DNA of 41,937 nucleotides. Source: an uncultured Oligoflexia bacterium. GTDB lineage: Bacteria; Bdellovibrionota; Bacteriovoracia; Bacteriovoracales; Bacteriovoracaceae. Made by a program: the position numbers and the translations under genes. Each line of letters begins with the position of its first letter. Positions within the stretch are counted from its first letter, which is position 1. Below the pieces are notes generated by a model, which saw only the letters and a program-made list of their open reading frames with translations, was not told the DNA's origin and ran no database searches. This document shows, in pieces, positions 10,348-17,407 of this stretch. The DNA is taken from the NCBI GenBank assembly GCA_950061135.1, contig CATLVU010000008.1, positions 1-41,937 of the forward strand. Reading direction: 5' to 3'.

Positions 10348-10404
10348 TTCCCCTGAAATAATTACAACAAAGTAAGAAAATGTTTAATTTCCACTTGATT
10401 TTTC

Positions 10405-10464
10405 AAGGATGGAGTTATAGAAGATCATTCGATTTCTATTTAGGAATTTCCGGAAACTCACGGA
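10405..10464 (+). promoter_or_regulatory. Putative CsrA-binding sites in the csrA leader
   Basis: The 143-base stretch between flgL and csrA contains three ANGGA motifs: AAGGA (10405-10409), ATGGA (10409-10413) and ACGGA (10460-10464). A small stem CTTGA/TCAAG (10394-10407) lies against the first. ANGGA is the known core recognised by CsrA in RNA, and CsrA autoregulation is known in several bacteria; regulation here is inferred. No binding evidence is available. Confidence 0.35.
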
Positions 10465-10490
10465 TTAATTGGGGTTTAAGAGGTTTAGAC

Positions 10491-10721
10491 ATGCTCGTTC
10501 TAACAAGGAAGCTTGGAGAAAGCATTGCAATTGATGACAATATTAAAATCGTTGTCGTTCAAATTAAAGGTAAACAGGTAAGACTTGGAATTAAGGCCCC
10601 TAAGGAGACCAAAATTCATCGTGAAGAAGTCTATCAGGCCATCCAAGATCAAAATACAGAAGCAGCGCAATCAACGCCTAGCGACTTAGCAAAGCTTAAT
10701 GACGATCTATTAAAGAAATAA
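10491..10721 (+). CDS. csrA: Carbon storage/flagellin translation regulator CsrA
   Basis: RNA-binding dimer that represses translation by covering ANGGA sites, in FliW-containing bacteria mainly on the flagellin mRNA. The 76-residue protein begins MLVLTRKLGESIAI and continues IKIVVVQIKGKQVRLGIKAP with HREEVY, the conserved CsrA core including the key C-terminal Arg/Glu region. A tail rich in Gln/Ser/Leu (about residues 52-76) is longer than E. coli CsrA. The ATG at 10491 is chosen over an in-frame start 111 bases upstream because the family always starts MLxLTRK, and AAGAGG lies six bases upstream. The next gene encodes its antagonist FliW. Confidence 0.95.
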   Translation: MLVLTRKLGESIAIDDNIKIVVVQIKGKQVRLGIKAPKETKIHREEVYQAIQDQNTEAAQSTPSDLAKLNDDLLKK

Positions 10722-10803: not shown

Positions 10804-11373
10804 ATGGTGAAAGTCAATACTACTCGCTTTGGAGAACTAACCGTAAATAAAGAAGATATTATCTCGTTTAAAGAGGGATTACTTGGTTTTGAAAATCTTA
10901 ATAAATTCTTTGTTGTAGATCCCGGCGATAGCACATTAATTCTATGGCTTCAGTCTATTGAAGATGCTTCTGTTGCGTTTCCAATGATTGAACCTAAAAT
11001 ATTCAAACCTGATTATGTTGCAAAACTTTTACCTGCAGATATGGCCAGCATAGAATTAGAAACAATGAGCTCAGCAAGAATCTACAGTATATTAACAATT
11101 CCTTCTGATATCACTGCAATGAGCGCGAATTTAAAAGCACCAATTGTTATCAATAATGCAAAAAGAATTGCTAAGCAAATTGTTCTTCAGGACAATAAAC
11201 TTTCGGTTAAATATGAAATGTATAAAGAGCTAAAGAGCTATATTGTTGCATACTCATCTGATGATACGAAAAGAACAAATGTTAACGCTCCTACAGCGGC
11301 AACAATTACTGAAACTACAACTCCTGAAAAGTCTTCTGACTCGATTGGAGTTACACCAGGAAAAGAAGCTTAA
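10804..11373 (+). CDS. fliW: Flagellar assembly factor FliW (CsrA antagonist)
   Basis: FliW binds CsrA allosterically and is itself titrated by flagellin, giving a partner switch that matches flagellin synthesis to export. The protein opens TTRFGELTVNKEDIISFKEGLLGFENLNKFFVVD, the family signature, and continues with WLQSIEDASVAFPMIEP. At 189 residues it carries an extra tail (about residues 150-189) rich in Thr, Ala and Lys with no recognisable motif. Either ATG (10804) or the next codon GTG (10807) may start it; GTG has better spacing from CGGAGG. It closes the flagellar block. Confidence 0.92.
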   Translation: MVKVNTTRFGELTVNKEDIISFKEGLLGFENLNKFFVVDPGDSTLILWLQSIEDASVAFPMIEPKIFKPDYVAKLLPADMASIELETMSSARIYSILTIPSDITAMSANLKAPIVINNAKRIAKQIVLQDNKLSVKYEMYKELKSYIVAYSSDDTKRTNVNAPTAATITETTTPEKSSDSIGVTPGKEA

Positions 11374-17064: not shown

Positions 17065-17141
17065 TGGAACGTGGCGCAGTTGGTTAGCGCAGTAGACTGT
17101 TAATCTATTGGTCGTGGGTTCGAGTCCCACCGTTCCAGCCA
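17065..17141 (+). tRNA. tRNA-Asn (GTT)
   Basis: A complete 77-base cloverleaf. The acceptor TGGAACG pairs with CGTTCCA, with G as discriminator and an encoded CCA (17139-17141). The D arm GCGC...GCGC is followed by the anticodon arm TAGAC-TGTTAAT-CTA with anticodon GTT, and the T arm GTGGG-TTCGAGT-CCCAC. The gene is followed directly by an intrinsic terminator, and its last 21 bases recur 206 bases downstream as part of a tandem repeat. Confidence 0.96.
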
Positions 17142-17201
17142 TTTAAAAAACCTTTTAGAGTATGAGCGATAGCGAATATTTTAAAAGGTTTTTTAGTTTC
17201 T
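17121..17201 (+). repeat. Tandem repeat copy 1: tRNA-Asn 3' end plus terminator
   Basis: This 81-base unit begins in the T loop of tRNA-Asn, includes its 3' end and CCA, and runs through the downstream terminator to AGTTTCT. It recurs at 17327-17407 with three mismatches (17158 G/A, 17170 T/A, 17173 C/T). The period is 206 bases. The arrangement resembles the E. coli tyrT locus, where repeats also carry the tRNA 3' end. Confidence 0.9.
17145..17194 (+). terminator. Intrinsic terminator of tRNA-Asn
   Basis: AAAAAACCTTTTA pairs perfectly with TAAAAGGTTTTTT (13 base pairs), with a loop of about 24 bases and a terminal T-run. It lies four bases after the tRNA CCA. The loop holds the start of a 13-codon reading frame. 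Confidence 0.75.
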
Positions 17202-17211
17202 GAGACTTAGT

Positions 17212-17336
17212 GTGGGACGAGAAGGGAGAAATCCGGCATGCAAAAGCATGCTGACTGAGCGTGATGCGAAGGAAAGGATTTCGAGGTGAGCCTACGCAAG
17301 TGAGACAGGAGTCGAACGATAGTAGGCGAGTCCCAC
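17212..17336 (+). ncRNA. Putative structured RNA between the two tRNA 3'-end repeats
   Basis: The spacer can fold into a closed multi-branch structure: GTGGGAC (17212-17218) with GTCCCAC (17330-17336) closes it. Inside are GAAATCC/GGATTTC (17228-17234 with 17276-17282) enclosing the hairpin GCATGC-AAAA-GCATGC (17236-17251), and CCTAC/GTAGG (17291-17295 with 17322-17326). The stems were found by eye. The region is clearly more G+C-rich than its flanks. Function unknown; it might be read-through RNA processed together with the tRNA. Confidence 0.45.
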
Positions 17337-17407
17337 CGTTCCAGCCATTTAAAAAACCTTTTAAAGTATGAGCGAAAGTGAATATTTTAAAAGGTTTTTT
17401 AGTTTCT
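17327..17407 (+). repeat. Tandem repeat copy 2: duplicated tRNA-Asn 3' end plus terminator
   Basis: Second copy of the 81-base unit. It contains CGAGTCCCACCGTTCCAGCCA, identical to the last 21 bases of the tRNA, but no 5' tRNA half, so it cannot make a tRNA. Three mismatches separate it from copy 1. It ends two bases before the stop codon region of the outer-membrane-type gene that converges on it. Confidence 0.9.
17351..17400 (+). terminator. Second copy of the tRNA terminator
   Basis: The same hairpin as at 17145-17194: AAAAAACCTTTTA with TAAAAGGTTTTTT and a T-run, with all stem bases conserved between copies; two of the three differences fall in the loop. The A-run on the other side lets it also end transcription of the leftward gene at 17411-17881. 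Confidence 0.7.

Follow-up and report, generated by a model that had tools for sequence, protein, structure and literature searches.

The window, the 41,937-nt stretch of DNA that was analysed, contains a tRNA-Asn gene whose 3' end is repeated downstream together with the hairpin that follows it, which raises the question of what kind of unit has been duplicated at this locus. The initial annotation offered two answers, a short integrated element or a processed trailer RNA family. The organisation of the sequence indicates that the feature is probably one unit of an rtT-type tRNA-linked repeat (TLR), whose RNA would be processed from the trailer of the pre-tRNA. The window lies in a draft genome of 2.75 Mb (contig C8), and the closest matches to its IcmF-like protein, at 70-73% identity, are from Bacteriovoracaceae MAGs of the phylum Bdellovibrionota. 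Elsewhere in the window (10380-10721 and 10804-11373), csrA (10491-10646) lies beside the FliW, flagellin and FlgK genes. The features of the tRNA-Asn locus are collected in Table 1.

Table 1. Features of the tRNA-Asn locus and its folded module in the window
Feature	Position	Strand	Evidence
tRNA-Asn(gtt) gene	17065..17141	+	ARAGORN; Rfam RF00005 72.6 bits
81-nt repeat, first copy: tRNA C56 to 3' end and trailer hairpin	17121..17201	+	78/81 identical to 17327-17407
Terminator-like trailer hairpin, long and A+T-rich, with tandem GA in the loop stem and a T run after it	17143..17196	+	fold
Complete folded tRNA-linked-repeat module	17212..17336 (about)	+	R1 135.2 bits; R2 121.8 bits
P1 5' arm GTGGGAC, complementary to tRNA-Asn T-arm 3' strand	17212..17218	+	sequence; fold; family test
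P2 domain	17228..17282	+	covariance model, pair counts, fold
P3 domain	17290..17327	+	covariance model, pair counts, fold
81-nt repeat, second copy: tail equal to tRNA C56-A76 (17327-17347) and hairpin (about 17349-17402)	17327..17407	+	

The two copies of the repeat differ by three mismatches in 81 nt at an offset of 206, as the initial annotation had described, with a sharp drop in identity at either end; the repeat is far beyond chance. It begins at position 17121, which is C56 of the tRNA-Asn T loop. No mismatch occurs in the first 37 nt, which take in tRNA C56-A76 (21 of 21 nt) and run into the trailer; all three mismatches fall in the trailer hairpin. The predicted fold of the first trailer hairpin has an energy of -24.5 kcal/mol (z -8.3), and the A+T-rich trailer hairpins were not called as terminators by a simple terminator scan. 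It had been proposed that the tRNA 3' end is duplicated together with its terminator; this holds at the window locus, but copying of the terminator hairpin is not general in the family to which the locus belongs. In the 206-nt unit, the 3' end of its own tRNA is followed by the trailer hairpin, then by an arm that is complementary to the T arm of this tRNA, then by a folded core; one further tRNA 3' end and hairpin come after the unit.

The item that is conserved across the family is a module of ~130 nt between the copies, which was absent from the earlier description. In the window it begins about 70 nt 3' of tRNA-Asn. The module is a three-way junction of ~125-130 nt in which the closing stem, P1, uses the copied T-arm strand of the tRNA as its 3' strand: the 5' arm pairs with GTCCCAC (17330-17336) in the tail of the second copy and is followed by GA (17219-17220) opposite GA (17328-17329), so that in the predicted fold P1 can extend as tandem GA/GA. 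The P2 stem, formed by GAAATCC (17228-17234) and GGATTTC (17276-17282), encloses the hairpin P2a (17235-17252) and the tandem-GA hairpin P2b (17255-17271), and the P3 stem, formed by GCCTAC (17290-17295) and GTAGGC (17322-17327), encloses the tandem-GA hairpin P3a (17300-17317) with the loop AGGA. The predicted fold of the window copy has an energy of -48.8 kcal/mol (z -4.3).

Support for this secondary structure is very strong. In the alignment of 86 copies, which was fitted to the model and so favours it, although the margin is very large all the same, 93.3% of pair cells contain standard pairs as compared with 63.5% in the shuffled control, and 736 cells contain double changes as compared with 200. 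Changes on both sides are seen at 33 of the 34 pairs, and the covariation signal is lost when the pair partners are slid. The non-standard pairs include 131 GT as compared with 11 AC, and 115 GA or AG as compared with 8 TC or CT. Because the departures are GT and GA rather than AC and TC, the folded strand is the tRNA-sense strand.

The initial annotation suggested a search for the spacer next to other tRNA genes and regarded absence of the repeat from all relatives as part of what would count against the reading; copies were found in the window genome itself and in its relatives, at 14 isotypes. By DNA similarity, the best relative (86%) follows tRNA-Leu(taa) in the same genome, and further copies are located behind Arg, Asp, Met and Ser tRNA genes in related genomes. 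A covariance model built from six copies (R1) gave 9 matches in the window genome and 39 matches in 17 of 129 genomes of the family, and, with no more than 14 candidates scored in each genome, located the module in at least 33 of the 241 Bdellovibrionota genomes sampled, in 8 families. With a second covariance model (R2), which gave a fuller scoring of candidates than the R1 survey, there were 8 copies in the window genome, 14 in genome G285 and 8 each in G092, G200 and G253. Halobacteriovorax sp. SP4097 is one of the carriers. R2 found no module in the near-complete genomes G002 and G063 and no match in the six genomes searched outside the phylum. Since many genomes, including these two near-complete ones, are without the module, it is not required for tRNA maturation. 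A 22-mer of the core had no exact match in the genome contigs or viral contigs scanned, and a DNA similarity search of plasmids and phages gave no match to the module, the phage matches listed being to the tRNA part.

Most modules are linked to a tRNA gene. A same-strand tRNA gene precedes 77 of 100 distinct copies by no more than 600 nt (median 67 nt), and these account for the 14 isotypes; the other 23 have no recognised upstream tRNA, some of them lying at contig ends. In G285, G092 and G253, 27 of the 30 copies adjoin a tRNA (12 of 14, 7 of 8 and 8 of 8, respectively). In G079, a genome from another family (f12), two near-identical modules (L012 and L014) are present with no tRNA gene recognised nearby. 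In the 77 linked copies the tail matches its own tRNA from C56 at 10.5 of 12 nt, as compared with 7.1 of 12 for other isotypes. Identity is about 91% at the start of the T loop and about 75% in the acceptor, and it drops to 45% or below within a few nt of the tRNA end; the copied part across the family runs from tRNA C56 to the 3' end.

The 5' arm is matched to the tRNA as well, pairing with its own tRNA at 7.60 of 9 positions as compared with 6.11 for permuted tRNAs (sd 0.10, maximum of 2000 permutations 6.47). Where tRNA positions 57-58 are AA the arm has TT in 22 of 22 copies, and where they are GA it has TC in 43, GA in 9 and CG in 3; the GA form of the arm, which is that of the window copy, gives a sheared tandem. 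Long arms that are antisense to the tRNA end over 16-17 contiguous pairs also occur (Leu in G210, Ser in G249 and Arg in G171). At positions where the tRNA and the part of the tail opposite the arm differ, the arm fits the tRNA by 12 to 4, and by 4 to 0 in well-aligned tails, so that in these small numbers there is a tendency for the arm to follow the tRNA rather than the tail. A count of 51 to 5 in the same direction was dropped, being largely due to degenerate tails.

Many copies have a second recurrent spacer of ~130-140 nt between the tRNA and the module, as seen at L002 (1369-1500), L080, L082, L084 (748-886), L026 and similar loci. It is a long hairpin with the conserved inner motifs CATCATCGTCGTCA..CTGCGGAGTAC..GTACGCCTCG..TCCTAGAGCATGA and looks GA-rich on the opposite strand. 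It is possibly a separate element family or a bidirectional terminator.

The median identity of cores is 0.674 for copies in the same genome behind other isotypes and 0.553 for copies in other genomes behind the same isotype, the background being 0.549. Because cores are more alike within a genome than within an isotype, units spread or are homogenised inside individual genomes, and their arms change with the host tRNA. The number of tandem units is one in the window and two or more in L026, L133, L136, L082 and L137. Duplicate modules that share a tRNA tail flank other genes in two of the genomes: in G027 (contig C115, 15198-17949; L038/L046) these encode an NTase_sub_bind protein (PF08780) and a nucleotidyltransferase (PF01909), which are toxin-antitoxin-like, and in G212 (contig C119, 4776-7214; L137) a BrnA antitoxin and a C1 peptidase. 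This arrangement suggests cargo capture at the units.

If the locus is a TLR unit of this type, a transcript started at the tRNA promoter and extended beyond the first hairpin would be a pre-tRNA with the module as its trailer. The trailer would fold with P1 as its closing stem, and the tRNA-like end of the module, with the second hairpin after it, would be cut like the 3' end of a tRNA or 5S RNA, releasing a small RNA; this step is modelled on E. coli RrB, for which it has been mapped. Units would multiply in tandem and spread from one tRNA gene to another within a genome; arm and tail would then come to fit the new host tRNA, either because they are copied with the gene as template or because P1 is under selection. 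A stronger version of this scheme, which we put forward tentatively and consider rather doubtful, is that TLRs propagate themselves among the tRNA genes of a genome, with the host tRNA serving on arrival as the template from which arm and tail are recopied, by a fold-back or inverted-repeat route, so that one core could fit any isotype, and that Gammaproteobacteria and Bdellovibrionota would use the same trick. As to function, our guess is that the released RNA is mostly a tolerated, self-propagating trailer, whose structure protects the processing of the tRNA and which is now and then recruited as an sRNA.

Two other explanations treat the repeat as an event in DNA. The module could be a mobile unit, a minimal integrative element recombining at tRNA T loops with C56 onward as its attachment identity, such that insertion restores the tRNA 3' end and leaves a second copy at the right end; modules could then also act as attachment-like sites that collect cargo. 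The repeat begins exactly at C56, and the C56 region of the T loop is a classic integrase position; the occurrence at 14 isotypes, the likeness of cores within genomes and the toxin-antitoxin-like genes between duplicate modules in G027 and G212 would also fit. However, no recombinase is present among the 20 window proteins scanned, cargo is seen in two cases only, and an attachment model accounts neither for the complementarity of the arm nor for the compensatory changes seen throughout the core and the GT/GA polarity, so that we regard a mobile unit as unlikely. Slightly less probable still is a passive tandem duplication, in which unequal crossing-over at the tRNA end made the copies and correction between inverted or direct repeats keeps arm and tail alike, with no RNA function. 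Tandem arrays are indeed common (L026, L133, L136 and L137), and the fit of most arms to the tRNA where the tail differs is what correction from the gene predicts, but the strong covariation extends to P2, P2a, P2b, P3 and P3a, stems that have no counterpart in the tRNA, and the TC-to-GA swaps in the arm can be understood only if they form sheared pairs within a folded strand. Of the two options in the initial annotation, the processed trailer RNA family is thus favoured and the short integrated element disfavoured, because of the lack of a recombinase among the window proteins scanned, the strand-polar conserved fold, and the 14 isotypes with matching arms.

The remaining explanation accepts a trailer RNA and assigns it a role: module RNA, produced in step with growth, would bind CsrA through loop GGA sequences and so tie flagellar and carbon control to tRNA transcription. 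This titration of CsrA appears highly improbable. Many csrA-bearing bacteria are not known to carry modules. CsrA is encoded in the window beside FliW and flagellin, the P3a loop of the window copy contains GGA, and E. coli RrB binds CsrA in vitro (PMC8144298), but the 19 tRNA-borne TLRs of E. coli score <0.01 as CsrA ligands (PMC8144298). Among the 86 aligned copies, GGA is present in 61 of the P3a regions and 41 of the P2b regions, with both in 31, and UGA is tolerated in the loop too; most P2b loops read N[G/T]GAN, so that UGA often stands in place of GGA.

Searches of Rfam at gathering and permissive thresholds gave only tRNA and chance matches; group I and II introns, retrons and self-cleaving ribozymes were put aside, having no Rfam match. 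As in 3'ETS-leuZ and other pre-tRNA trailer sRNAs, the proposed RNA would derive from the trailer of a tRNA transcript; we know of no tRNA-end copy or structured module of this kind in such sRNAs. Integrative elements targeted to tRNA genes (attL/attR) share the direct repeat of the tRNA end from the T loop and the occasional cargo, but differ from the window family in its conserved single-strand fold, 125-nt core and complementary arm, with no integrase seen among the window proteins scanned. Integron attC sites such as VCR are likewise folded repeats, of about 125 nt, and toxin-antitoxin cargo lies near two of the modules, but the module arms follow the tRNA genes and not a fixed core site. 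A REP-like or attC-like site acting as single-stranded DNA was put aside: the folded strand is settled, the sequence fits either RNA or ssDNA, and the linkage to tRNA favours RNA.

The closest resemblance is to the TLRs of E. coli, of which K-12 has 22 at ten loci; they were first seen in 1978, are described as having "no known function", and those borne by tRNA genes are still without an assigned function (PMC8144298). The members at rrn operons, RrA, RrB and RrF, lie between dual terminators and are transcribed by read-through, their ends are consistent with RNase E, and they are bound by Hfq and CsrA (PMC8144298). The initial annotation saw in the window the same logic as in rtT of E. coli tyrT, and the layout of arm, core and tail does recur there: the rtT units behind tyrT and tyrV have the arm GGGGAAGGAT, a GA-rich core and the tail ATCCTTCCCCCACCACCA. 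Matches to the Rfam RtT model (RF00391) were found in 33 of 185 gammaproteobacterial genomes, and the contexts read are behind tRNA-Gln, -Ser and -Tyr (L269-L298). In 29 of the 30 such loci with an upstream tRNA, the arm is complementary to the T arm of that tRNA and the tail copies it, an organisation that the window family shares, and the arms show the same choice of TC or GA. The RtT model has no match in the window at E up to 10, in related loci at E up to 5, or in any of 59 relatives, and R2 scores only 8.2 bits on E. coli rtT (E 0.08, not significant); common descent with rtT is therefore not established. The Rfam model probably sees only tRNAs with the T loop TTCGAATCC, so that RtT is likely to be under-counted. 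The window family also suggests that Rfam RtT represents no more than part of the TLR phenomenon.

The window unit has the copy of its own tRNA 3' end, the position behind a tRNA gene and the number of units per locus by which TLRs are recognised. Like the TLRs of E. coli (rtT/RttR at tyrT-tyrV and RrA/RrB/RrF at rrn), the units lie directly 3' of a tRNA (or 5S) gene, occur singly or as several in tandem with a spacer or terminator between gene and unit, and repeat at their 3' end the 3' end of the gene itself, over 18-19 bp in E. coli and at least 21 nt here. In both, an arm complementary to the T arm closes a folded GA-rich core, and the swap of TC for GA in the arm is found too (GGATGAGAA as compared with GGACGAGAA). 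The window family differs in the sequence and branching of its core, in serving many isotypes with one common core, and in its phylum; transcription and processing have been demonstrated in E. coli, whereas the Bdellovibrionota family is known from its sequence. The literature searched, outside which most subscription papers lie, yielded no account of TLRs in Bdellovibrionota. The family is best read as a phylum-wide new variant of the TLR type in Bdellovibrionota. It would be a second TLR family, much broader than the first, in which a single core with strong covariation is found at 14 tRNA isotypes. It supplies a model of the structure, a natural series of mutants, and contrasts in which the identity of the tRNA varies while the core is constant, so that processing, spread and function become directly testable.
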